From assembly GCF_031450785.1 (NCBI RefSeq), contig NZ_JARTWB010000001.1, forward strand, positions 1,252,195 through 1,316,194: a stretch of 64,000 nt of DNA, given 5' to 3'. Made by a program: the position numbers and the translations under genes. Below, one piece after another: positions 38,625 through 51,080 of this stretch. Each line of letters opens with the position of its first letter. The first letter of the stretch is position 1. Under the pieces are notes generated by a model. It did not search any database. It worked only from the letters and a program-made list of their open reading frames with translations, and was not told where the DNA came from. Origin of the DNA: Caballeronia sp. LZ062. Its GTDB lineage: Bacteria; Pseudomonadota; Gammaproteobacteria; Burkholderiales; Burkholderiaceae.

Positions 38625-38692
38625 GGTGCAAGGGCGGGCACATGCCCGCCTCTCCTGGATATCGTGCTTCGCTTGGGCGCTTCTTCGTCACT

Positions 38693-39436
38693 ATGAAACT
38701 GTTTAGCCGACTCGCATCTATTGCGATGCTTCTTGCCGTGATTCAGGGCTTTGGCCCGCAGGCTCGTGCTTCGGTGGTTATCGCCGGCACGCGCGTCGTG
38801 TACAACCAGAGCGATTCCGAAGTCACCGTCAAGCTGACCAACAACGGCAAGCTGCCCGGTCTCACGAAAGTCTGGATCGATAATGGCGATGCCGACGCCA
38901 AGCCCGATACCATCGACGTGCCCTTCACGATCACGCCGCCCATGATGCGCATCGATCCGGGCAAGTCGCAGACACTGCGCATCATGTCGACCGGGGAGCC
39001 TCTTCCGGGCAACAACGAATCCGTGCTCTACCTGAACGTGCTGGAAGTGCCGCCGAAGCCGACAGGCGACGAAGCGAGCGCCAATCAGTTGCAGCTCGCG
39101 TTTCGCACGCGCATCAAGTTCTTCTATCGGCCGGCGGGCTTGAAGGGGCAGGCGAGCGACGCGCCGCAGTCCATCGTGTGGCATCTAAAGCGCGAAGGCG
39201 GCAAGAACGCGCTGGTCGCCGATAACCCGACGCAGTATCACGTGTCGTTCGACCGTGTGGAACTGACGGATGGCGCGCACACGGCGCTATTCACGGACGG
39301 CGGCATGGTTCGGCCCGGCCAGAGCGAGACGTTCCCGCTCAAGGGCGAACTCCCCGCCGCGGGCGCAAAGGTTCGCTATACCGCGATCAACGACTATGGC
39401 GGCCCGCAGACCGGTGACGCCACGCTCGCCCCCTGA
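38693..39436 (+). CDS. fimC: Periplasmic fimbrial chaperone (PapD/FimC family)
   Basis: About 247 residues with signal peptide ending RASVVIAG. Two Ig-like domains: VIAGTRVVYNQSDSEVTVKL, FTITPPMMRIDPGKSQTLRI, SVLYLNVLEVPPKP, FRTRIKFFYRPAGLKG (conserved Arg and Lys that grip the pilin C-terminus). It carries pilins to the usher. The start at 38693 fits the signal peptide. Confidence 0.9.
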   Translation: MKLFSRLASIAMLLAVIQGFGPQARASVVIAGTRVVYNQSDSEVTVKLTNNGKLPGLTKVWIDNGDADAKPDTIDVPFTITPPMMRIDPGKSQTLRIMSTGEPLPGNNESVLYLNVLEVPPKPTGDEASANQLQLAFRTRIKFFYRPAGLKGQASDAPQSIVWHLKREGGKNALVADNPTQYHVSFDRVELTDGAHTALFTDGGMVRPGQSETFPLKGELPAAGAKVRYTAINDYGGPQTGDATLAP

Positions 39437-39579
39437 TCCGCAGCGTCGCCCACTGCCACAAGCCGGCTGCCAGACGCCCGCGCAGTTGAAAGCGCCGCAA
39501 TGACCCCGTAGAGATGCCCTTGTGTGCATGCCTTGCCGCATGCCGGGGCCGGCTTTGCTCGCACATTTCGGATAACTGA

Positions 39580-42171
39580 ATGAAAACGCACCAATGCAGC
39601 GCCCACTTGTCCGGCGCGCGATTGAGACCTGTCACGCTGTTCACGCTTCAGGCTTTGGCCGCGATGGGCGTCAGCGCGCACGCCTGGGCGGACGCTTCGC
39701 CGCAGCCCGCAGCCGTCGAATTCAACGAGCAGTTTCTGGATTCGAGCGGCGGCCTGAAGCTGGACATCTCACGTTTCAACAACGGCCAGCCGGTCCTGCC
39801 AGGCACATATCGCGCCGATACCTACGTCAACAACGTCTGGCGCGGCAAGTTTAGCGTGGAGGTGCGCGATTCCACGCAGCATCCCGGCGTGGTGCAGCCG
39901 TGCGTGACGGCGGACCTGCTTGAGAGCTTCGGTGTCGATCTGCGCAAGCTCTCGCCTGAAGCGGCCGCGAAGCTCGAATCAGCTGCTAACGCCTGCCTGA
40001 CGCTGCCGGACCTGATCCCCGGTGCCATCGCGATGTTCGACGGCGGCGAGCAGCGTCTCGACGTGAGTGTGCCGCAAATCGCAATGAACAGCCGCGCCCG
40101 CGGCTATGTCGATCCGAAATACTGGGACGACGGCATCAACGCCGGCACGCTCCAGTACAACGCGAACGTGTATCACAGTTCCGCAGGCGGATTCGACAAC
40201 GATTCGGAATACCTCGGCCTGATCGGCGGCATCAACGTCGGTCCGTGGCGTTTCCGCTATCAGGGCAACGTCACGCACAACAACGTCAGCGGCTCGCATT
40301 ATCAGAGCGTGCAGACCTATGCGCAGCGTGCGTTCAAGGACATCAAGAGTCAGTTGACGGTTGGCGACACCTTCACCGACGGCGCTCTTTTCGACAGCTT
40401 CGGCGTGCGCGGCGCCACGCTCGGCACCGATGACCGGATGTTTCCGGAGTCGCAGCGCGGCTACGCGCCGGTGGTGCACGGCATCGCCAATAGCAATGCG
40501 CGCGTGCAGGTCAGGCAGAACGGCAACATCATCTACGAGACGACGGTCGCGCCGGGCGCGTTCGAAATCGACGACCTGTATCCGACGGGTTATGGCGGCA
40601 ACCTCGACGTGATCGTCACCGAGGCCGACGGCACACAGCATATTTCGACGGTTCCGTACGCGGCTGCCGTGAACGCGCTGCGGCCGGGCGTCACGCGCTA
40701 TAGCGCGAGCATCGGGCAGTACCGTGATCCGAACGTCGATATTCATCCGTTCGTCTCGCAGTTCACGTTACAGCGCGGCATTAGCAATCTGGTGACGCTC
40801 TACGGCGGCGTGAGCGCAGCCGACTTGTATTTCTCTACGATGATCGGCACCGCGCTCAACACGAGCGTCGGCGCATTCGGTCTCGACGTCACGCAGGCGA
40901 CCGCCAGCTTCAAGGGCTACGGCACGCGCAACGGGGCGAGTGTGCGGATCAGCTATTCGCGCCTGTTCGAGCCGACAAATACTAACATCGCGATTGCTGC
41001 GTATCGCTATTCGACGAGCGGCTTCTTCTCGCTGCCCGACGCCGTGATGATGCGGCAACTGAACGAGATACATCAGCCCGGCCTCATGACCGCGCTGCAA
41101 AAGTCTCGCGTGCAGTTCACGCTGAACCAGAGCATCGGGGCGGGCGCGCAGTATGGCTCGCTCTATGCGATGGGTTCCTTCCAGACGTACTGGAATCGGT
41201 CCAACCACGATACGCAGCTGCAAATCGGCTACAGCAACAGCTGGAAGCGCATGACGTACGGCGCATCGTTCGTGCGGCAGTTCCAGGTCAACACGAACCG
41301 GTGGGACAACCGCATCATGCTGAACATGTCGATTCCGCTCGGCTTCGGCGCGCATGCGCCGCAGTCGACGACCAACTTCCAGCACGACACCGCGGACGGC
41401 AGTTCGACCATCCAGCAATCGGTCACGGGTACGCTCGGCACCGACAACGCATTCAGCTACGGCATCAACGCGACGTTGAACGATGGCGGCAGCCACAGCA
41501 GCAGTTCGGCGAGTGCGGGCGGCAACATCGGATACGCGGCTCCGTTTGCGTTGCTCACGGCAAATGCCAGTACCGGACGCAACTATTCGCAGATCGGGGC
41601 AGGCATGTCGGGCGGCCTGGTGGCGTGGCGCGACGGTGTCGCGTTTACGCCGAATATGGGCGATACCGTCGCGGTCGTCGAAGCAAGCGACGCGGCTGGC
41701 GCACGCCTCGCCAACGGCGCCGGCCTGCGCGTCGACCGGTGGGGGCACGCTGTCGTATCCGGCATGCAGCCGTATTCGAACAACGACATCGAACTGGACC
41801 CGAAAGGCTTGCCGATCAACATCGCGCTGAAGTCCACCGTGCAGCGCACCGCACCGACTGCCGGCGCCGTAGTGCGGCTCAAGTTCGAGACGGAGAACAT
41901 GGGCAAGCCTGCCGTCATGCGCGTGTCGCAAGCGGATGGACAGCCCCTGCCGTTCGGCTCGGAAGTGTTCGACGCTGACAATCGCAGCGTCGGCACGGTG
42001 GCGCAGGGCAGCCGCATCATCGCGACCGGTCTCAAGGCCGACGCCGGCACGCTGAACGTGAAATGGGGCGAAGCGCCCGAGCAGCGCTGCGCGGTGCGCT
42101 ATCAGTTGCCGGCTCTGACCGATGCGTCGAAGCCGAACTCGATCAGCATATCGGACGCCGTCTGCCAGTAA
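39580..42171 (+). CDS. fimD: Outer-membrane fimbrial usher (FimD/PapC family)
   Basis: 863 residues with a signal peptide ending AHAWA. N-terminal domain (VEFNEQFLDSSGGLKLDISR), barrel with plug (GYAPVVHGIANSNARVQVRQ, YPTGYGGNLDVIVTEADG) and C-terminal domains ending in CRYQ-like strands (QRCAVRYQLPA, ISISDAVCQ). It gathers chaperone-pilin pairs and exports the fibre. Normal length. Confidence 0.92.
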   Translation: MKTHQCSAHLSGARLRPVTLFTLQALAAMGVSAHAWADASPQPAAVEFNEQFLDSSGGLKLDISRFNNGQPVLPGTYRADTYVNNVWRGKFSVEVRDSTQHPGVVQPCVTADLLESFGVDLRKLSPEAAAKLESAANACLTLPDLIPGAIAMFDGGEQRLDVSVPQIAMNSRARGYVDPKYWDDGINAGTLQYNANVYHSSAGGFDNDSEYLGLIGGINVGPWRFRYQGNVTHNNVSGSHYQSVQTYAQRAFKDIKSQLTVGDTFTDGALFDSFGVRGATLGTDDRMFPESQRGYAPVVHGIANSNARVQVRQNGNIIYETTVAPGAFEIDDLYPTGYGGNLDVIVTEADGTQHISTVPYAAAVNALRPGVTRYSASIGQYRDPNVDIHPFVSQFTLQRGISNLVTLYGGVSAADLYFSTMIGTALNTSVGAFGLDVTQATASFKGYGTRNGASVRISYSRLFEPTNTNIAIAAYRYSTSGFFSLPDAVMMRQLNEIHQPGLMTALQKSRVQFTLNQSIGAGAQYGSLYAMGSFQTYWNRSNHDTQLQIGYSNSWKRMTYGASFVRQFQVNTNRWDNRIMLNMSIPLGFGAHAPQSTTNFQHDTADGSSTIQQSVTGTLGTDNAFSYGINATLNDGGSHSSSSASAGGNIGYAAPFALLTANASTGRNYSQIGAGMSGGLVAWRDGVAFTPNMGDTVAVVEASDAAGARLANGAGLRVDRWGHAVVSGMQPYSNNDIELDPKGLPINIALKSTVQRTAPTAGAVVRLKFETENMGKPAVMRVSQADGQPLPFGSEVFDADNRSVGTVAQGSRIIATGLKADAGTLNVKWGEAPEQRCAVRYQLPALTDASKPNSISISDAVCQ

Positions 42172-42204
42172 GCGCCAATCAACTCTAATAGTCAGGAAAC
42201 CAAA

Positions 42205-43287
42205 ATGAAACGCATGAATCGGCTCGCAGTCGGGCTGCTGCGGTGGGTGTTGTGCTGGATGGCTGCGCTGATGCTCGTGCCGTCGTCCGCATGGGCCACT
42301 GCTAGTTGCACGGTCAACTACAGTTCGTTCACGCTGACGCTGCCACCTTCGGTCGCGGTCGCGCGTGACTTGCCGAACGGATCGATACTGACGGCATGGT
42401 CGCTGTCGCCCTCGAAGAACGATTATTGGACCTGCATCGTGACGGGGCAGGTCTATACGGGCACGGACTTCGAGACGGCGGGCATCACGACGGGCGGACC
42501 GACCGTGTATACGGCCAATTACCAGGGCGTGGATTTCGAGGTATATCCGACCAATGTGCCGGGCGTGGGCATCGCCATGGGCGGTTATGTCATTCCGAAC
42601 AGCCTTCCTGCAGGGCCCCGCACGTTTTCCAAACTCGGTCGTCAATGGAATAACAATGGCACGATCTACAACGGCGGCCAGTTGATCGTCGCATTAGTCA
42701 AGATTGGAGACATCACGCCGGGCACCGCAACGGGCATGGTCGCGCAGGCGTTCTCGTGGCAGACGCTAACGCCGCCGCCGGCGGGGGACGTGCCGTCGGC
42801 TGGCGTCATCAATTTCTACATCACGCCGGTGGTCATTACCGTGCTGACCTGCCAGACGCCCGATGTCACGGTGCCGATGGGGATTCAGGGACCGGCTGAT
42901 CTTCCGAGTATCGGGCCGGCGCCGAGCAAGGTTTCATCGTTCAATCTGAGTCTGAACAATTGTCCCGGCGGAACGGCCGTGAGCGGAACATATGCAGGGC
43001 AGATTCACAGCATCCAGTACAGGATCGATCCGTCGAGCGGGCTGGTGGCCGGCTACAGCAATGTCGCCGCGTTGAGCGGGTCGCCGACTGCGGCGGGCGT
43101 GGGCATTCAGCTCTACGACCGGACCGGTGCGGTCTTCCCATACGGGACGTATATCGCGTTGAACGGCTTCGACAGCGCTAATGGCGGCAACTACACCATA
43201 CCGATGCAAGCGCGCTATTACCGCACTGGCGCGCTCGGAGCGGGTCCCGCCAACGCGACGATGACCATGACCGTGCTGTACCAGTGA
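42205..43287 (+). CDS. Fimbrial tip adhesin / minor subunit
   Basis: 360 residues, with signal peptide (LLRWVLCWMAALMLVPSSA). The N-terminal two thirds (about 30-215) form an unrecognised possible receptor-binding domain with NPAG-free, Tyr/Gly-rich sequence. The C-terminal part (about 220-360) is a pilin domain with TCQTPDVTVPMG, FNLSLNNCPGG and a terminal MTMTVLYQ donor-strand end. A two-domain layout at the operon end is typical of tip adhesins. Its ligand cannot be read from sequence. Confidence 0.8.
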   Translation: MKRMNRLAVGLLRWVLCWMAALMLVPSSAWATASCTVNYSSFTLTLPPSVAVARDLPNGSILTAWSLSPSKNDYWTCIVTGQVYTGTDFETAGITTGGPTVYTANYQGVDFEVYPTNVPGVGIAMGGYVIPNSLPAGPRTFSKLGRQWNNNGTIYNGGQLIVALVKIGDITPGTATGMVAQAFSWQTLTPPPAGDVPSAGVINFYITPVVITVLTCQTPDVTVPMGIQGPADLPSIGPAPSKVSSFNLSLNNCPGGTAVSGTYAGQIHSIQYRIDPSSGLVAGYSNVAALSGSPTAAGVGIQLYDRTGAVFPYGTYIALNGFDSANGGNYTIPMQARYYRTGALGAGPANATMTMTVLYQ

Positions 43288-43331
43288 TCCGTCCATCGGG
43301 CGGCCAGCAACATCGATTCAGGAGAACACAC

Positions 43332-43850
43332 ATGAACAGATTGAAAACCGCGCTCGTCGCAGTCGGCCTGGCGACGGCATCATCGGCCTTCGCCGCCGAC
43401 GCCACGTTGACCTTTACCGGCACCATCATCCTGCCGACCTGCACGGTGGATCCAAGCTCCGTCACGCAAACGATCCCGCTCGGGACCGCGCGAACGACGG
43501 ACTTCGCAGGCGTCGGCGACGTCAAGAACGCGACGCCCTTCAACCTCAAACTCAACAACTGTGCTGCAAATACAGCGGTCTCCATGACCATCAACGGAAC
43601 GGCCGACACGGTGCAAAGCGTGCTCAAGAATACGGGCACGGCAACGCAAGTCGGCGTGCAACTGTTGAAGGCCGTTAATGTGGGTGACACGTCCGGTTCA
43701 CCCATCACGCTGAATACGTCCGCGACGATCGGAACGGTCGACGCGACCAACGCATTGACCATTCCGATGGTCGCCCAGTTCTACCGGCTGGGCACCATGA
43801 CGGGCGGAACCGTGTCGGCGGCGGCTACCGTCAACTTCGCCTATAACTGA
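43332..43850 (+). CDS. Minor fimbrial subunit
   Basis: 172 residues from MNRLKTALVAVGLATASS, signal peptide ending SAFA. Pilin motifs: ATLTFTGTIILPTCTVDPSS, FNLKLNNCAAN and a C-terminal VSAAATVNFAYN. It has the same pilin fold as the major subunit. The gap before it is 44 bases, and the ribosome site is AGGAG at 43320-43324. Last gene of the fimbrial operon. Confidence 0.85.
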   Translation: MNRLKTALVAVGLATASSAFAADATLTFTGTIILPTCTVDPSSVTQTIPLGTARTTDFAGVGDVKNATPFNLKLNNCAANTAVSMTINGTADTVQSVLKNTGTATQVGVQLLKAVNVGDTSGSPITLNTSATIGTVDATNALTIPMVAQFYRLGTMTGGTVSAAATVNFAYN

Positions 43851-43975: not shown

Positions 43976-44200
43976 ATGCAAAAAATCGACCGTAACACCT
44001 TGGCACACGCTGAACTCGCAGGCGGCACTGCCAAGGCGTCGAGCAGCTCTTCTTCAAACACGAATGTGAAGATTTCGATCGCCGGTTCGTCGAGCGCATC
44101 CGGCGGCGGGTCTGGCGGCGGGTCCGGCGGAGGGTCCGGCGGCAGCTCGAACAATTCGAACGACAAAGGCGGGTTCGCGGCCGCGCTAAGAGCGCACTGA
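43976..44200 (+). CDS. Putative secreted peptide 1 with double-glycine leader
   Basis: 74 residues. The leader MQKIDRNTLAHAELAGG ends in a GG pair, the usual cut site of C39 peptidase transporters. The core (57 residues) opens with TAKASSSSSSNTNVKISIAG and continues as a Gly-Ser-Gly repeat (residues about 42-57), then Asn/Ser and FAAALRAH. No signal peptide and no Cys. It shares leader and the core motif SSNT-x-V-x-I with the peptide encoded at 44607. The matching transporter lies 3 kb downstream. It could be a microcin-like bacteriocin, a signal or an adhesive surface peptide; sequence alone does not decide. Confidence 0.7.
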   Translation: MQKIDRNTLAHAELAGGTAKASSSSSSNTNVKISIAGSSSASGGGSGGGSGGGSGGSSNNSNDKGGFAAALRAH

Positions 44201-44218
44201 TTCGGGCTTGCGCAAAGC

Positions 44219-44249
44219 AAGGCCATCCTCTACGAGGGTGGCCTTTTTT
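44219..44249 (+). terminator. Strong intrinsic terminator after peptide 1
   Basis: AAGGCCA-T-CCTC / GAGG-G-TGGCCTT stem with a TAC loop followed at once by a T6 run. Textbook intrinsic terminator; it separates peptide 1 from the export operon. Confidence 0.85.
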
Positions 44250-44606
44250 GTTTTGTTATTGCACGTGACGTGGATTGACGTTGGTCCAGATGCGCCGAGA
44301 CCGGATCGCTTCCGTTAGGCACGTATTTGGAGATTACGTTTGCACAGTCGCACGTTTCAGGCGTCTTATTCCTACCAATGCGCTAATAAGTTGCCGTCTT
44401 CAGGCTAGTCGTCGGGCGGTATTGCTTAATGGCGCGTCTTTCGGAGTTTTCGTCGTTTACCGGCATGATCGAAATGATTAAGATCGCCCATTCAGGATAA
44501 TTAAACATTTCCTGATAACGCCCAAACAGAGTAGGGCCGACTGTCGGGATCATCCAATTTCGGTCGGCACTACTCATATTCAGAAACTTTGCAGGAGGAA
44601 ATGAAA
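44250..44606 (+). promoter_or_regulatory. Probable promoter region of the peptide export operon
   Basis: A gene-free, relatively AT-rich stretch (strongest at 44480-44520) directly before peptide 2, so the likely promoter. It holds an inverted repeat TCAGGA / TCCTGA with 13 bases between (44492-44515) that could be an operator. AGGAGG at 44593-44598 is the ribosome site of peptide 2. No gene was accepted here. Confidence 0.45.
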
Positions 44607-44723
44607 ATGCAGAAAATCGAACGCAACGCATTGGCGCAAGCTTCGCTGGCTGGTGGATGCCATAAGGCAAACAGCCAGGCATCGTCCAATACGACGGTCG
44701 TTATTTACGTGACGGGTAAGTAA
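44607..44723 (+). CDS. Putative secreted peptide 2 with double-glycine leader
   Basis: 38 residues, starting at ATG 44607 eight bases after AGGAGG (ATG 44601 in frame is too close to it). The leader MQKIERNALAQASLAGG matches that of peptide 1 at 11 of 17 places. The predicted core of 21 residues starts with the only Cys and contains ASSNTTVVIYVTGK, the same SSNT-x-V-x-I pattern. Likely cut after GG by the C39 domain of the transporter in the same operon. With a free N-terminal Cys it might dimerise or be modified; this is inference. Confidence 0.7.
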   Translation: MQKIERNALAQASLAGGCHKANSQASSNTTVVIYVTGK

Positions 44724-44778
44724 GGCGATTCGCCAATGGGCTGTCTTCTCGCCAGCGTTATCGCCTGAGAGCTAGCCA

Positions 44779-44806
44779 GCGGGGCGGGACCTCGGTCTTG
44801 CCCCGC
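44779..44806 (+). promoter_or_regulatory. Hairpin between peptide 2 and the export genes
   Basis: GCGGGGC-gg-GACC / GGTC-tt-GCCCCGC is a near-symmetrical stem of 7+4 bp. It has no T-run, so it probably lowers readthrough or protects the peptide mRNA, giving many peptides per transporter. Confidence 0.5.
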
Positions 44807-44829
44807 CGCCACTTCCGGAAGAGTTCGTC

Positions 44830-45765
44830 ATGCTTGCCTTGCGTCCCGCGCTGAAGAAATGGATCGCCGTGCGAAAGCACCGCGTTCGGCGTTGTATTGT
44901 CGGTCGTATTCCGATGGCTTCAGTGGAAAGGCTCGCGGAGTTGTCGTGGCGCGTGGTTAGCGTAGTGGACGCGAACTGTAGGGCGAATGGGCAAATCCGG
45001 GCGGAGATCGGTCGCGCCGCTCTGAATTTATCTAAGCGTCGCGCGCGTCGTGCGTGTTTCGGCGCTCAAGTCGAGAAACTGATCGACCAGCGCATCTATT
45101 ATGGCCGCGACATTCGTCAACGGGAAGCGTGGGCGGATCTGGACGAAATTGCGAACATGCTGGTGGAGGCGGTGAATAAGCTAAAACGCGAAGCGCCTGC
45201 GCGGCCGGTATTCATCTCGCCATTTCACTTCGTATCGCAATACGCGAACATTTATATCGTCGAACGCATGGCCGCGCTGCTCGGGTTGAAGTCGATGTCC
45301 GTCGTATCCGGCGTGCCACGCAATCAATACGGCGACGATCACGCGCTGATTCCCGGCATCAAGGTCCTTTACACCTATGGCGACGCGAACCGCAACGGGC
45401 TCGGCGTGCGCGTGGCGCGCTCGCTCAAGCGCGACGGCGTGGCCGTACTGTTTAGCGACGTTCCGCCGTTCACCATGCACCGCTATCCGATGGAGACGGT
45501 CGAAGTCACCATGTTCGGCAAGAGCGCCCGACTCCACAACGGCGTTTTTCGCATGGGCGACACGTTCGGTGCCGTGCTGCTGCCGTTCTATCTGCGCTTC
45601 ACGCGAGGCCGCTTCGAAGCGCGGCTCTTCGACCCGCTGCCGCTCGATAAGCCGGAATCTCCACAGCGCCTCGCCGGCTATATCGAGACCGCGCTCGGCG
45701 ACAACTATGAGCAGTGGCTTCCGGCCGGGCACCCCGCCATGTACGCGTTCGCTCCGTCACGCTAG
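44830..45765 (+). CDS. LpxL/HtrB-like acyltransferase-fold protein in the peptide operon
   Basis: 311 residues. The pattern ARPVFISPFHFVSQYANIYI, GIKVLYTYGDANRN, LKRDGVAVLFSDVPP and a terminal IETALGDNYEQWLPAGH resembles lipid A late acyltransferases of the LpxL group. The usual catalytic H-x4-D/E is not clear: HFVSQY lacks the acid at the right place. It also lacks the normal N-terminal membrane helix and starts very basic (KKWIAVRKHRVRR). It lies between the peptide and the transporter genes, so a role in peptide modification, self-protection or envelope change is possible. Called by fold resemblance only. Confidence 0.55.
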   Translation: MLALRPALKKWIAVRKHRVRRCIVGRIPMASVERLAELSWRVVSVVDANCRANGQIRAEIGRAALNLSKRRARRACFGAQVEKLIDQRIYYGRDIRQREAWADLDEIANMLVEAVNKLKREAPARPVFISPFHFVSQYANIYIVERMAALLGLKSMSVVSGVPRNQYGDDHALIPGIKVLYTYGDANRNGLGVRVARSLKRDGVAVLFSDVPPFTMHRYPMETVEVTMFGKSARLHNGVFRMGDTFGAVLLPFYLRFTRGRFEARLFDPLPLDKPESPQRLAGYIETALGDNYEQWLPAGHPAMYAFAPSR

Positions 45766-45821
45766 GAAACCACAGCGCGATCGACAGTGCGCGATGCATC
45801 GTCATTCGCAGGCAATCTCTC

Positions 45822-47051
45822 ATGCAACCGACCGATATTCCCCAATTCAAAGATGTCCCGTGGCGCTGGATCGCCTACGCGACATCGCTATTCACCGTCG
45901 CGGCAATCGCCTTCGGTTTCGTGCATGAGATCGAACTCAAGCAGGACGTCACCGGCGAAGTCGTTTCTGCATCCGAGGTCAAGGTCGAGGGGTTGGCCGG
46001 GCTCGTCTCGGCCATTTATGCGCGGCCGTCCGACCGCGTCGAGCCCGGTACGCCGCTGTTCCGTCTTCAGCGCGATTTCTCACTGACGACAGACGGGCTG
46101 CGCCGGCAGGCTTTCGACGAAAAGATGCGAGACGACCAGATTCGCTCGATCGACGAACAGTACAGCGAGCGTCGCGTTCAGTTGCAGGCGCAGCGCGACA
46201 CGGCGCGTCTCACCGAAGCTAGCAGGCGCGCGGAACTGGGTTCGCTCGATGCGCAAATCGCGCAGAACACGCAACTTGTCGGCGAATTCGAGCAGCGGCT
46301 CACGCGGCTCAACTCCGTGTCGGATTACGTGACGGCCGACAAGCTCGAACAGGCCCGCGCCGACGTTCACCAGGGCAAGGTGACGGTCGCGCAGAGCGTC
46401 GCGCGCAGGCAGCAGCTGGCGGGCGAATTGAGCGCGTCGCACAGCAGACAGACTGATCTCGATGCGCAACTGCGCGAACTCGACGCACGTCACGCCCGCG
46501 ATGTGCAGGACGTCCGCGCGCGCTTCGAGCGCGAGCGACAGGACGCGACAGTATCGGCGCCGAAAGGCGGCACCGTGACGTTCTCCGGTTTGGTCGCCGG
46601 CCGGATGCTCGCTGCGGGCGATGTGGCGATGGTGATCTCGACCAAAGACAGCGGCCCGCTGCGCGCGGCGCTGAGCATTCCTTCGCGGCGGCGCGGCTTT
46701 GTGCGCGAAGGCCAGATCGTGCGCCTAAAGTTCGACGCGTTTCCCTACGCCAAGTTCGGGACGTATGAAGCGCGCATCGATTCGATATCCGGCACGACGG
46801 TGCTGCCGGCGAGTCCGGTCGCGCCGCCCGGCACGCCCGGCGCCCCCGATCCTTCCGAGCAGACCGAGACCGCGAAGGAATCCAATGGCGATTACCTTGC
46901 GTGGGCCACGCTGCGCGGCGATACGTTCGATTTCGAAGGGCAGCACTTCAAGATTCTGCCCGGAATGCGGGCGACGGCCAGCATCGTCGTCGAGCGCCGA
47001 ACGATTGCTGAGTGGGTCCTGGCGCCGCTGTTCCGAATGTTGAGAGGTTGA
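45822..47051 (+). CDS. HlyD-family periplasmic adaptor
   Basis: 409 residues from MQPTDIPQFKDVPWRWIAY. A single inner-membrane helix (about 16-35) is followed by a lipoyl half (VTGEVVSASEVKVEGLAGLV), a long coiled coil (about 95-240, rich in Gln/Arg/Ala/Asp), the second lipoyl half (VSAPKGGTVTFSGLVAGRML) and beta-barrel parts. It joins the inner-membrane ABC transporter to the outer-membrane channel. It ends two bases before the transporter start. Confidence 0.88.
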   Translation: MQPTDIPQFKDVPWRWIAYATSLFTVAAIAFGFVHEIELKQDVTGEVVSASEVKVEGLAGLVSAIYARPSDRVEPGTPLFRLQRDFSLTTDGLRRQAFDEKMRDDQIRSIDEQYSERRVQLQAQRDTARLTEASRRAELGSLDAQIAQNTQLVGEFEQRLTRLNSVSDYVTADKLEQARADVHQGKVTVAQSVARRQQLAGELSASHSRQTDLDAQLRELDARHARDVQDVRARFERERQDATVSAPKGGTVTFSGLVAGRMLAAGDVAMVISTKDSGPLRAALSIPSRRRGFVREGQIVRLKFDAFPYAKFGTYEARIDSISGTTVLPASPVAPPGTPGAPDPSEQTETAKESNGDYLAWATLRGDTFDFEGQHFKILPGMRATASIVVERRTIAEWVLAPLFRMLRG

Positions 47052-47052
47052 T

Positions 47053-49173
47053 GTGCGCGTTATCTATCAGAACGAAGTCGCCGAATGCGGTTACGCGTGT
47101 CTCGCGATGGTGCTGTCTCATTTGGGCCGCGCGACCGAGGTGCGTGAACTGTCGGCCTACAAGCCGATTTCGGCGAATGGTCTCTCGTTGATGGACCTGT
47201 ACGACGTCGCCATCGATTTCGGGCTGGCGGTGCAAGCGTATCGTTTCGACGCGTCGGACCTTTCCGCCGTCAAGAAGGGCTCGATCCTGCATTTCGGCGG
47301 CGCACACTTCGTCGTGTTCGAGAAAGCGGGGCACGGCTACGTCCGCGTAATCGATCCGGCCACGGGTCGCCGGCGCGTGTCGATGGACACGTTTCGCTCC
47401 GCCGTTTCGGGCTTTCTGCTCGAATTCGCGCCCACGCCGCAGATGCCGCGCATCCGCGCGAAATCGCGGGTGCCCGCGGCGCTCAAGCGCGTGCGCACAC
47501 TCAGTCCGCAGATGAAGGCGCAGATCAGCAAGATTGTCTTCGTCGCGCTCGGCAGTCAGTTCGCGATTCTGGCCGCGCCATATTTTGGCAACCTCGTGCT
47601 CGACTACGTCGTGGCGGCGGACAACCGCACTCTGCTCGACGTGCTGGTCGTCACTTTCGCCAGCATCTTCATGCTTGGCGCGTTGAGTGAGTATGTCCAG
47701 AAGTACCTGACCGAGATGCTCTACAACGTCACGCAGACCAACTCCACCGAGGGCCTGCTCGGGCACTTGCTGCGCAACCCGATGCCGTGGTTCGAGAAGC
47801 GGCATGTGGGCGATGTCTTCGCGCGCGTAAAGGCGCAGGACGAAATCAGTGCGTTCACCACGCGCACGACCGTGGCGCTCATCATCGATCTGACGGTCGG
47901 TGCGCTCGCGCTCGTGCTCATGCTCATTCAGAGCCGCCAACTGGCGTGCGTGGCGTTGCTCATCTTCGCGCTTTACGTCGCGCTGGCGTTGAGCATGTTC
48001 GCCGCAATGCGCGACAACCACGCGCTGGTGCTTGAAACATCCGCCCGCTGCGACGATTCGCTCATCGAGACGATCCGCGCCGCGTCGCTGCTCAAGCTGG
48101 CGCAAGGCGAGACGCGCCGTACCGCCCTCTACATGGTCCTTTACAAGGCGTATGCCGCGGCGCTTCTTCAGAGCAGCCGTCTCGCGTGCACGCGTGATGG
48201 ATTGCTGAAGCTCGTGACTTACGCGGATACCATCGTCATCACGTGGCTTGCGGCGCGGCTGATGCTCGGCGGGAAGGTGTCGGTCGGTGTGTTCTATTCG
48301 TTTCTGATCTACAAGTCGCTGATGTCCGAGCGCCTCGCGAGCGGAATCAACGCCATGTTCCAGTACTTCATGCTGAGTGTGCCGACCGCGCGTGTCGACG
48401 ATATTGTTCAGAGCGAGAACGAACGCTACACGCCGCTCGCCGATACGCAACGCGCCACCGAAGTGCGCTCGTTCGAGCAGATCGACGTGCGCGACGTCAC
48501 GTTCAGCTACGGCATTTCCGATGAACCGGTACTCAAGAACGCCAGCTTCTGCATCCGCCGGGGCGACAAAATCGCGATCACCGGTCCGTCGGGCAGCGGC
48601 AAGTCCACGCTCTTCAAGCTGCTGTCAGCGGCCGAGCCGTTGCAGCACGGGCATATCGCGCTCAACGGCATTGCATGGCCGAATCTCACCGTCGACGAAA
48701 TCCGCCGTCATCAGGCGCATATGCGGCAGGGCGACATCATCCTGCACGGTTCCATTGCGGACAACGTCACGCTCTTCGCGGCGCAGACGGACGAAGATCG
48801 CATTCACAAGCTGCTCGCGGATGTGGGTCTTCTCGACGACATCATGCGTTTGCCGATGCGCACGCGCACTGTCATCAGCGACACCATCGCGAATATCTCA
48901 GCGGGTCAGCGCCAGCGGCTCTTGCTTGCGCGCGCGCTGTATCAGCAGCGCGAGCTATTGCTGCTCGACGAACCGACATCGAATCTCGACCCCGCGTCCG
49001 TGCAGCGCATTGCGTCGCTGCTGCGCAATCTCGATAAAACGGTGGTCGTGATCACGCATGACATGTCGCTCGCTTCGGTTTTCGAAACCCGTTACAGGTT
49101 CGACGCCGGCGCGCTGCTGCCCGAGCGCAAGGCGACGAGCCATGCCGTGCCGGACGAACCGCTCCATGTTTAA
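47053..49173 (+). CDS. C39 peptidase-containing ABC exporter (bacteriocin type)
   Basis: 706 residues from GTG 47053 with GAGAGG upstream. The C39 peptidase domain (1-130) has Q6, C12 (QNEVAECGYAC), H85 (HFVV) and D101 (IDPATG), the complete catalytic set, so it should cut double-glycine leaders. The transmembrane domain (about 155-435) is followed by the ATPase with ITGPSGSGKSTLF, ISAGQRQRLLLARAL and LLLLDEPTSNLD. It should cut and export the peptides at 43976 and 44607. Confidence 0.92.
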   Translation: MRVIYQNEVAECGYACLAMVLSHLGRATEVRELSAYKPISANGLSLMDLYDVAIDFGLAVQAYRFDASDLSAVKKGSILHFGGAHFVVFEKAGHGYVRVIDPATGRRRVSMDTFRSAVSGFLLEFAPTPQMPRIRAKSRVPAALKRVRTLSPQMKAQISKIVFVALGSQFAILAAPYFGNLVLDYVVAADNRTLLDVLVVTFASIFMLGALSEYVQKYLTEMLYNVTQTNSTEGLLGHLLRNPMPWFEKRHVGDVFARVKAQDEISAFTTRTTVALIIDLTVGALALVLMLIQSRQLACVALLIFALYVALALSMFAAMRDNHALVLETSARCDDSLIETIRAASLLKLAQGETRRTALYMVLYKAYAAALLQSSRLACTRDGLLKLVTYADTIVITWLAARLMLGGKVSVGVFYSFLIYKSLMSERLASGINAMFQYFMLSVPTARVDDIVQSENERYTPLADTQRATEVRSFEQIDVRDVTFSYGISDEPVLKNASFCIRRGDKIAITGPSGSGKSTLFKLLSAAEPLQHGHIALNGIAWPNLTVDEIRRHQAHMRQGDIILHGSIADNVTLFAAQTDEDRIHKLLADVGLLDDIMRLPMRTRTVISDTIANISAGQRQRLLLARALYQQRELLLLDEPTSNLDPASVQRIASLLRNLDKTVVVITHDMSLASVFETRYRFDAGALLPERKATSHAVPDEPLHV

Positions 49174-50497
49174 GCGACGCATTGTGCTGTGTGCGCTCGC
49201 GGGCGCGCTCGTCTTCGTTGATGCCGCACGTGCGGACGATCTCGTTGCCATCGTGCAGCAGGCGCTCGATCATGACGCCGAACTCGGTCAGGCGCGCGCC
49301 GCCTACGAAGCCGCGAAGCAGGCGGTTCCCATCGCGCGCGCTGCGCTGCTGCCGCAGATTGCGGGCGGTTGGGGACGTTCGTACAACCGCATCGACATGG
49401 ACGGCTTCCCGCGGCAGAAGTATTGGCAGAACGGCTGGATGGTGGCCGTGACGCAGCCGCTTTTCGACTGGAGCAAGTGGACCGCGTATCGGCAGGCGGA
49501 TTTCGTCGTGGCGCAAGGCGCGGTCGACTTCGCGGGCGCGCAGCAGGCGTCGATCTTGCGCGCCGTGCGCGCGTATTTCGATGAACTCGCCGCCGAAGAC
49601 GAAGTGAAGCGCGCGGCCGACTATCTCGCGGCCATTGACGCGCAATTGCAGCAGGTGCGTCGCAAACGCGCGGTGGGCGAGGTGACGCTGATCGACCAGC
49701 GGGAAGCCGACACGGCGCGCGAGCAGGCGCAGTTGCAGCAGACGGATGCGCAGGAGGAACTCAGCGTGAAGCGCCGCGCGTTGCAGCAAGTGACCGGACG
49801 GCCGTTTGCCGCGCTCGCCTCCTTGCCGCCGGGGTTTGCGTTGCCGACGCTAGCGGAAGGCGAGGAAGCGTGGGTCGAGCAGGCCAGATCGCGCGGTTAC
49901 GAGGTGCAGTCGAAGCAGCTCGGCTGGGAAATCGCCAGGTTCGATTCGACGAAGTCTCGCGCGGCAAATTACCCGGTCGTCAGTGTGACCGGGAGCTACA
50001 CGCCGGCCGGCGCGGCGTCGGGTTATGCGCGTCCCACGACCACGACAACCGGCATGCTGCAAATCCAGATTCCGCTTTTCTCGGGTGGCGAACTTCAGGC
50101 CCGCGTGAAGCAGTCGCTGGCGCTCGAAGACAAGGCCAAGGAGAGCTACGAACTGGCTTCGAATCAGGCGGAGGCATCCGCTCGCGAAAACTTTGCAAAG
50201 TACCTGCGCGAGCGTCAGCGGACGGACGCGCTCGGCCATCTCGTGCAAAGCGCGGGCGATACGTTGAGCGCCACCGAAGTCGGATTCAAGGTCGGAACGC
50301 GAACCGGCAATGACGTGCTGCGCGCCATCGACGCGCTCTACACCGCGCGCCGCGATCTGCTGCGTTCGCGCTATGCGGCCGTGGTCGCGTTCTTGCAGTT
50401 GAAGGCGGATGTCGCCACGTTGAGCACGGACGACATCGCGGACATGAACAGCAAGCTCTGCTGCACCGTGCAGACGTCGAGCGCCGACGTGCGATAG
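49166..50497 (+). CDS. TolC-family outer-membrane efflux channel
   Basis: 443 residues from [15 protein letters not shown], signal peptide ending AARA. Two outer-membrane-efflux repeats ([60 protein letters not shown] and a second helix-rich half). Its start overlaps the transporter end by 8 bases, so translation is coupled. With the HlyD and ABC proteins it completes a type 1 secretion channel. Confidence 0.9.
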
Positions 50498-50507
50498 GCG
50501 TCGCGCG

Positions 50508-51080
50508 TCAGTCGGCGTGCCGCACCGCGCGTACCAGGCGTGCGATGGCCTTCAATGCATCGGCGGGGGCGTCGGCGAACTGCGCCGCCACGATCGCACC
50601 GTCCACCGCCAATGCGAGCGCTTGCGCGTCGGCCTTCGCGGTGCGGGAGGGCGGCATCAGCGCGCGAATCGCCGCGGTCATGTCCCGCTTGTGCCGCCGC
50701 GCGATCTCGACGGCTTGCGGCAGCGTACCGCCGACTTCGACGACCGCATTGATGAATGCGCAGCCGCGATACGTCTCGCCGCCGAACCATTCGGCGAGCG
50801 CGGGGACCAGTGCGGAAAGGCTTCCGCCGTGACGCGAAATGGCATCGTGGAACCACGCCATCCAGTTCTCGTGACGGTATTCCAGGAACGCGATGATCAG
50901 ATCGTCCTTGCTCGGGAAATAGCGATAGAACGTCTTTTTCGCGACGCCCGATTCCGCAATCACACGGTCGATGCCCGTCGCGCGGATGCCGTCGCGGTAG
51001 AAGAGGTCGTGAGCCGTGCGCAAAATGCGCGCATCGGGGGAAAGCTCGGCAAAGTCAGCAGAAGAGGCGATCACGTTCAT
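50508..51080 (-). CDS. TetR-family regulator
   Basis: 190 residues. The N-terminal HTH ([39 protein letters not shown]) is followed by a ligand domain. It faces a DUF1348 gene across a 111-base gap that contains two palindromes (51092-51109 and 51129-51148) sharing the GTAGACA half-site. It therefore probably represses itself and the divergent gene. The ligand is unknown. Confidence 0.88.

Follow-up and report, generated by a model that had tools for sequence, protein, structure and literature searches.

We have studied a stretch of 64,000 nucleotides from the genome of Caballeronia sp. LZ062 (contig NZ_JARTWB010000001.1, positions 1,252,195–1,316,194), which we will call the window. It contains a locus for the export of small peptides with a double-glycine (GG) leader. 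In one syntenic unit we have found peptides of a single leader family, encoded by pepA and pepB, an ATP-binding cassette exporter with an intact C39 peptidase domain (C39-ABC), an adaptor, a channel and a conserved enzyme of the LPLAT fold. The comparison of sequences leads us to favour, by a small measure, the following reading: a type I secretion system that serves a single family of GG-leader peptides and has an acyltransferase of its own. It would cleave the leaders, handle acylated peptides and often be coupled to a pilus.

Peptides, exporter and acyltransferase

The leaders of pepA and pepB differ in 4 of 17 positions (Table 1). With a family profile of 40 rows, pepA and pepB themselves among them, a search of their own genome gives E values of 1.4e-20 for pepB and 1.2e-17 for pepA. 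Across five orthologues, pepB has dN/dS values of 0.04 (leader) and 0.26 (core) and pepA of 0.49 and 0.14; these values are rough because the genes are short. Such purifying selection supports the view that both genes are coding. An AGGAGG lies 8 nt before the start of pepB; an alternative ATG six bases earlier is also possible. A hairpin is apparent by eye at the position of the pepA terminator in 7 aligned rows.

An earlier note on this DNA had described a pair of small genes sharing a GG leader and had assigned them to no recognised family. Both statements agree with our results: the profile values and the purifying selection exceed chance, and neither peptide matches Pfam (at E 0.1) or NCBIfam, so that a known leader family is rejected. 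The idea that there are only two peptides is also rejected. The profile has six matches in their genome. Besides pepA and pepB these are four orphan precursors at three other places: two on contig C1 at 390 kb, one on C1 at 504 kb and one on contig C2 at 197 kb.

The same note had listed a C39-ABC exporter with residues Q6, C12, H85 and D101, an HlyD adaptor and a TolC channel. All four residues and the corresponding domains are present, and a degenerate C39 is rejected. The spacing of C12, H85 and D101 is identical to that of Cys32, His105 and Asp121 of CvaB, as given in PMC9746304. Since C39-ABC exporters are well established and the residues are intact, cleavage of the leader and export of the peptides by this transporter are very probable. 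There are only two C39 domains in the genome, one in the window and one on C1 at 269 kb. The second one, also part of a C39-ABC (L001, G000:C1:267464-269482), sits within a frame of 1,024 residues, whose N-terminal part presumably resembles cyclic-nucleotide-binding domains.

The list of parts given in the earlier note is correct but incomplete: it overlooked the conserved acyltransferase gene between pepB and hlyD. Its product has the LPLAT fold. The HX4D/E motif is only in part present: His133 is kept, position +5 is Tyr138. Asp210 is invariant across 14 rows; it may plausibly correspond to PatA Glu200. PatA itself catalyses its reaction without the acid of the motif. PatA and LpxL/LpxM have 11–13% sequence identity with the window enzyme in fold alignments; unlike them, it has Tyr in place of the acid and is genetically linked to exported peptides. 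A search of the PDB sequences with its profile gave no match at E 1. The Pfam and NCBIfam scans of the locus proteins gave no GNAT match.

Acylation of the peptide by the LPLAT enzyme seems to us slightly better founded than its absence. In the cytoplasm the enzyme would attach a fatty-acyl group to the core of the precursor. The candidate sites are a near-invariant Lys at core position +3 or an adjoining Ser, Thr or Cys. This Lys was found by script in 91 of 99 distinct peptides, and by eye in one of the other eight (L092, which was misparsed); a Lys elsewhere in positions +1 to +5 is found in 4 of the 99, and Cys at +1 in 47. The C39 domain would cleave after the GG, and the HlyD/TolC conduit would release or display the lipopeptide. 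The orphan precursors probably share the window exporter, and pepA, as the gene that closes the upstream pilus operon, would be expressed jointly with the pilus.

Table 1. Features of the locus and its flanks, in window coordinates
Feature	Position	Strand	Evidence and remarks
PapD-type pilus chaperone	38642..39436	+	Pfam PapD_N E 2.1e-41, PapD_C E 1.7e-17
Outer-membrane usher of chaperone-usher pilus	39580..42171	+	PF00577 E 2.3e-161 at the matching place of its own genome
Fimbrial tip-adhesin-like protein	42205..43287	+	Pfam Fimbrial E 1.7e-12, MrkDrd E 6.2e-7
Fimbrial subunit	43284..43850	+	Pfam Fimbrial E 1.3e-15
pepA, 74-aa precursor	43976..44200	+	Leader MQKIDRNTLAHAELAGG; core rich in S/T and G; 125 bp 3' of fimbrial subunit gene
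Intrinsic terminator 3' of pepA	44219..44245	+	12-pair hairpin and T tail, folding z -4.41
pepB, 38-aa precursor	44607..44723	+	Leader MQKIERNALAQASLAGG; core CHKANSQASSNTTVVIYVTGK
G+C-rich hairpin without T run, between pepB and acyltransferase	44779..44806	+	Weak: z -1.96 and -2.13 (two stretches folded)
LPLAT-fold acyltransferase, 311 aa	44830..45765	+	His133 and Asp210 invariant
HlyD-type periplasmic adaptor	45822..47051	+	Pfam HlyD_3 E 1.2e-11; TIGR01843 E 1.1e-25, under its cut-off
C39 peptidase ABC exporter	47053..49173	+	GTG start; Pfam Peptidase_C39 E 8.8e-24, ABC_membrane, ABC_tran
TolC-type outer-membrane channel	49166..50497	+	TIGR01844 E 9.9e-73, over its cut-off
TetR-type regulator	50508..51080	-	Pfam TetR_N E 2.3e-14; convergent neighbour, membership in the system uncertain

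Distribution in the genus and beyond

Among named organisms, the locus has its closest counterparts in 13 loci from Caballeronia, Paraburkholderia and Burkholderia sp. records, of which two, belonging to Candidatus symbionts, are broken. Of 121 near-relative genomes 16 carry the acyltransferase, and all 16 are within the genus. At E 0.01 the peptide profile has matches in 23 of the 121 genomes, 21 of them in the genus. Among the 58 genomes of the genus (a count which is inferred), 15 have peptide and acyltransferase, one the acyltransferase only, six the peptide only and 36 neither. This co-occurrence has a Fisher p of 2.5e-8, kinship ignored. The genomes with peptide only are G003 (60% complete), G007, G015, G017, G046 and G051; G015 and G017 retain exporter remnants, G046 and G051 are small genomes. 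The earlier note had named leader peptides without a transporter in most genomes as a sign against its proposal. Within the genus this is not so: 15 of the 21 peptide-bearing genomes of the genus have the acyltransferase locus, two more keep the exporter remnants and four have neither. Weak peptide matches were found in G072, G105 and G017; only that of G072 was recovered on a second look, and it is doubtful.

The acyltransferase was also sought in wider samples. Of 398 genomes from the family, 50 have it (16 in g1, 27 in g65, 5 in g3 and 2 in g11, by our own codes), and of 399 from the order, 2; a broader profile detects it in 8 of 398 genomes from the phylum. We have examined 35 loci of the family, a few of them from genomes already sampled. 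A close homologue is present in 31, and in all 31 a peptide with the same leader is clustered with HlyD, C39-ABC and TolC genes, some of them truncated or split. The same gene set is found in G844, which belongs to another family of the class. The cores of the relatives vary far more than their leaders. Many of those in the genus are rich in Ser and Thr, with an alternating strand, for example TTVVIYI, at their end; in g65 CCK is a frequent start. A subgroup of the orphan peptides has a C-terminal end like SVIIVNGQTVISQSVTF.

Some loci show peculiarities. In G001 the locus is split: L038 has the acyltransferase together with the N-terminal 90 residues of HlyD, and the C39-ABC is found beside an usher fragment (L097) of the same contig, at a distance of about 0.7 Mb. 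Two Candidatus genomes, which we take to be leaf-nodule symbionts, have frame breaks in the acyltransferase, HlyD, TolC and TetR genes (L029, L033, L039), and in L029 also in the ABC gene; the system appears to be decaying in both. In Paraburkholderia (L028:16195-20931, L031, L032) a type I polyketide synthase gene begins about 340 bp after tolC. Ketosynthase (KS), acyltransferase and dehydratase domains were found in the part of it scanned in L028, and it has about 2,140 residues in two loci followed further (L237, L238). With its neighbouring genes it looks like a separate cluster, and we have not used it as evidence. A spread on small plasmids is rejected: in the plasmid collection the window exporter is found on two large Caballeronia replicons only.

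A divergent version of the system is found in four genomes of g3, another genus of the same family. There a divergent LPLAT lies between a different GG peptide and the C39-ABC, followed by MacA- and MacB-like genes. The cores of L120 and L121 in this genus have NTTIVNVYV or NTTVVNVYV, which resemble NTTVVIYV in pepB; the leaders differ. The divergent LPLAT system is also present in 22 of 217 genomes of an enterobacterial family, in 23 regions. A GG peptide precedes the LPLAT in 22 of them and a DsbA-like gene is found in 22; C39-ABC, MacA and MacB follow in all 23, and 11 have a LuxR-type gene. Two of these GG peptides were tested and both match Pfam DUF4762 (PF15959), with E 9.6e-25 and 6.5e-9; pepA and pepB have no PF15959 match in the Pfam scan at E 0.1. 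In the nine enterobacterial chromosomal regions examined (from 9 of the 22 genomes; L235 is in pieces), the channel gene is always followed by a KS, a protein of unknown family, an acyl carrier protein (ACP) and a ketoreductase (KR). This module is the best indirect evidence for an acyl chain made for the peptide. It is found in none of the four g3 regions.

IncF-type plasmids from both E. coli and Salmonella carry similar clusters, and so does a Chimaeribacter plasmid (L217-L223), with DsbA, LPLAT, C39-ABC, MacA, MacB, an outer-membrane factor (OMF), KS, ACP and a short-chain dehydrogenase/reductase (SDR). Most of their genes are annotated as ABC transporter or hypothetical, and DsbA is unannotated in two. 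Five plasmid records have by annotation a KS and an SDR or 3-oxoacyl-ACP reductase; the ACP is annotated in four, and the fifth has a hypothetical gene of that size. The annotation of NZ_CP071130 has no features in the stretch concerned. A DNA search of E. coli genomes with the enterobacterial LPLAT-C39 stretch gave no match.

Association with pili and alternative readings

The earlier note needs a second correction: immediately upstream of pepA, and in the same orientation, there is a set of chaperone-usher pilus genes (38642-43850). No terminator was called in the gap between the fimbrial subunit gene and pepA, which is probably the final gene of the pilus operon. Of the two ushers in the genome, one precedes the acyltransferase in the same orientation, with 4.4 kb between the centres of the two genes. 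In the genus a co-oriented usher is found upstream in 11 of 16 loci and one more has fimbrial genes only. In other loci of the family these values are 4 of 31 and two more. Among the enterobacterial regions, 13 of 23 have such an usher within 7 kb and one more at 12 kb; the g3 loci have none in four. The flanks compared are unequal in length and kinship of the loci is ignored in these counts. An orphan peptide gene is found 3' of another usher-adhesin operon in L087. Also, in the genome of the window (L081:8919-12158, on C2) an orphan peptide gene and the gene of a YadA-like trimeric autotransporter adhesin (YadA_anchor E 2.8e-14) are neighbours in divergent orientation. Since pepA would be the last gene of a pilus operon, one role of the peptides is likely to be at the cell surface or in adhesion. 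We put forward a pilus or surface role, for acylated or plain peptides, only as a tentative suggestion.

Unmodified peptides might also be associated with pili. They could be surface or matrix components of the pilus, with strand-forming cores, while the acyltransferase would adapt the envelope lipids for the pilus or the exporter. The frequency of ushers in the genus and in enterobacteria, the position of pepA with a terminator at its end, the orphan of L087 and the strand ends of many genus cores agree with this possibility. Nevertheless it appears rather improbable: most loci of the family outside the genus have no nearby pilus genes, their cores are short and often Cys-rich, and the KS, ACP and KR of enterobacteria indicate an acyl product. 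A class II microcin-like system would instead produce unmodified toxins against relatives, with the acyltransferase modifying the lipids of the producer as immunity. Of the five components that PMC9746304 names for class II microcins four are present, the cores vary well above the leaders, and lipid A acyltransferase LpxM has the same fold. But no small conserved immunity-type gene is evident amid pepA, pepB and the acyltransferase (open reading frames and aligned intergenic DNA inspected by eye; no immunity or membrane-helix models run). Furthermore precursors are found at three additional places, the enterobacterial KS, ACP and KR would be superfluous for a plain microcin and the pilus linkage is unexpected. 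We consider such a system unlikely, and the same applies to any antibacterial role of the peptides.

Cell-cell signalling by cleaved peptides acting as pheromones is the least probable of these explanations, and we give it little weight. Some mature peptides have just 16–23 amino acids, there are several variants per genome, a TetR gene is retained next to most genus loci and the LuxR-type gene is found in part of the enterobacterial regions. On the other hand, no receptor or two-component pair is evident by eye beside the window locus, and no TetR gene was seen in L028, L031 and L032. The earlier note had proposed an undescribed microcin-like, signalling or surface system. An undescribed dedicated GG-leader export locus is well supported. 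The microcin part is weaker, because there is no evident immunity gene, the precursors are scattered and the acyltransferase had been overlooked; the pilus linkage tilts the choice between signalling and surface toward the surface.

Several observations weigh against an acylating, pilus-coupled secretion system, which is the reading that we favour. Of the 16 genus loci, 4 have no pilus genes nearby, and the same is true of most other loci in the family and of the four g3 loci. A peptide match is present in 6 of 42 genus genomes without acyltransferase, three of them weaker than E 1e-8, which tells against strict coupling; G018, with a broken locus, has the acyltransferase and lacks a peptide match. 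The flanking DNA scanned around the window locus and the other genus loci yielded no fatty-acid module. In four of the five plasmid loci (L217, L219, L220, L223) there is no clear GG peptide before the LPLAT, and the one in L221 is doubtful. The conserved Lys at +3 could instead serve recognition by C39. To our knowledge, all LPLAT enzymes act on lipids or glycolipids. Finally, a Tyr takes the place of the motif acid in the window enzyme, whereas the title of the LpxM entry gives Glu127 as catalytic.

Comparison with known systems

RTX toxin operons with HlyC resemble the window locus in that genes for type I secretion are joined by one for a dedicated acyltransferase. They differ from it in several ways: their proteins are large and carry the signal at the C-terminal end, their acyltransferase is of another kind, and their C39-like domain has no peptidase activity. 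Class II microcins of the microcin V type have in common with the window a GG-leader precursor, a C39-ABC with the catalytic spacing of CvaB, a membrane-fusion protein and a TolC-type channel (PMC9746304). The window locus is unlike them in having its own acyltransferase and, in the operon, its own TolC; its leaders and cores are unrelated to theirs, its precursors are scattered, and an immunity gene is not evident.

Fatty-acylated ribosomally synthesized and post-translationally modified peptides (selidamides, lipolanthines, goadvionins, lipoavitides, nostolysamides) are similar only in the way they work: a ribosomal precursor and an acyltransferase, in some cases with a C39-type transporter. 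As described in PMC9505594 and PMC13060382, their acyltransferases belong to the GNAT family and their precursors are lanthipeptides or proteusins. For their use of GNAT enzymes we do not include the window system among them. It has an LPLAT-fold enzyme, a short GG leader and no lanthionine synthetase in the locus; its acylation is only predicted. The open-access literature searched gave no description of an LPLAT with GG peptides and no mention of DUF4762. Should the peptide be the substrate of the acyltransferase, a second enzyme superfamily beside the GNATs would be added to those of ribosomal lipopeptides, together with a native Gram-negative secretion route. The short precursors and the single enzyme make this chemistry readily testable. 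Such an activity would also raise the question why a secreted peptide and a pilus share one locus.

The enterobacterial DUF4762 peptides are similar to those of the window by their GG leader and by the adjoining divergent LPLAT and C39-ABC. They differ by another leader, a Cys-rich core, a MacA/MacB/OMF conduit, a DsbA-like gene and the KS, ACP and KR genes. Both versions might belong to a new class of ribosomal lipopeptides in Burkholderiaceae and enterobacteria, a proposal which we consider possible but somewhat short of probable. Its GG-leader precursors would be acylated by LPLAT-fold enzymes, not GNATs, then cleaved and exported by a C39-ABC through HlyD/TolC or MacA/MacB/OMF, some with a fatty-acid module and often with chaperone-usher pili as surface lipopeptides. 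If this is true, DUF4762 would acquire a testable function.

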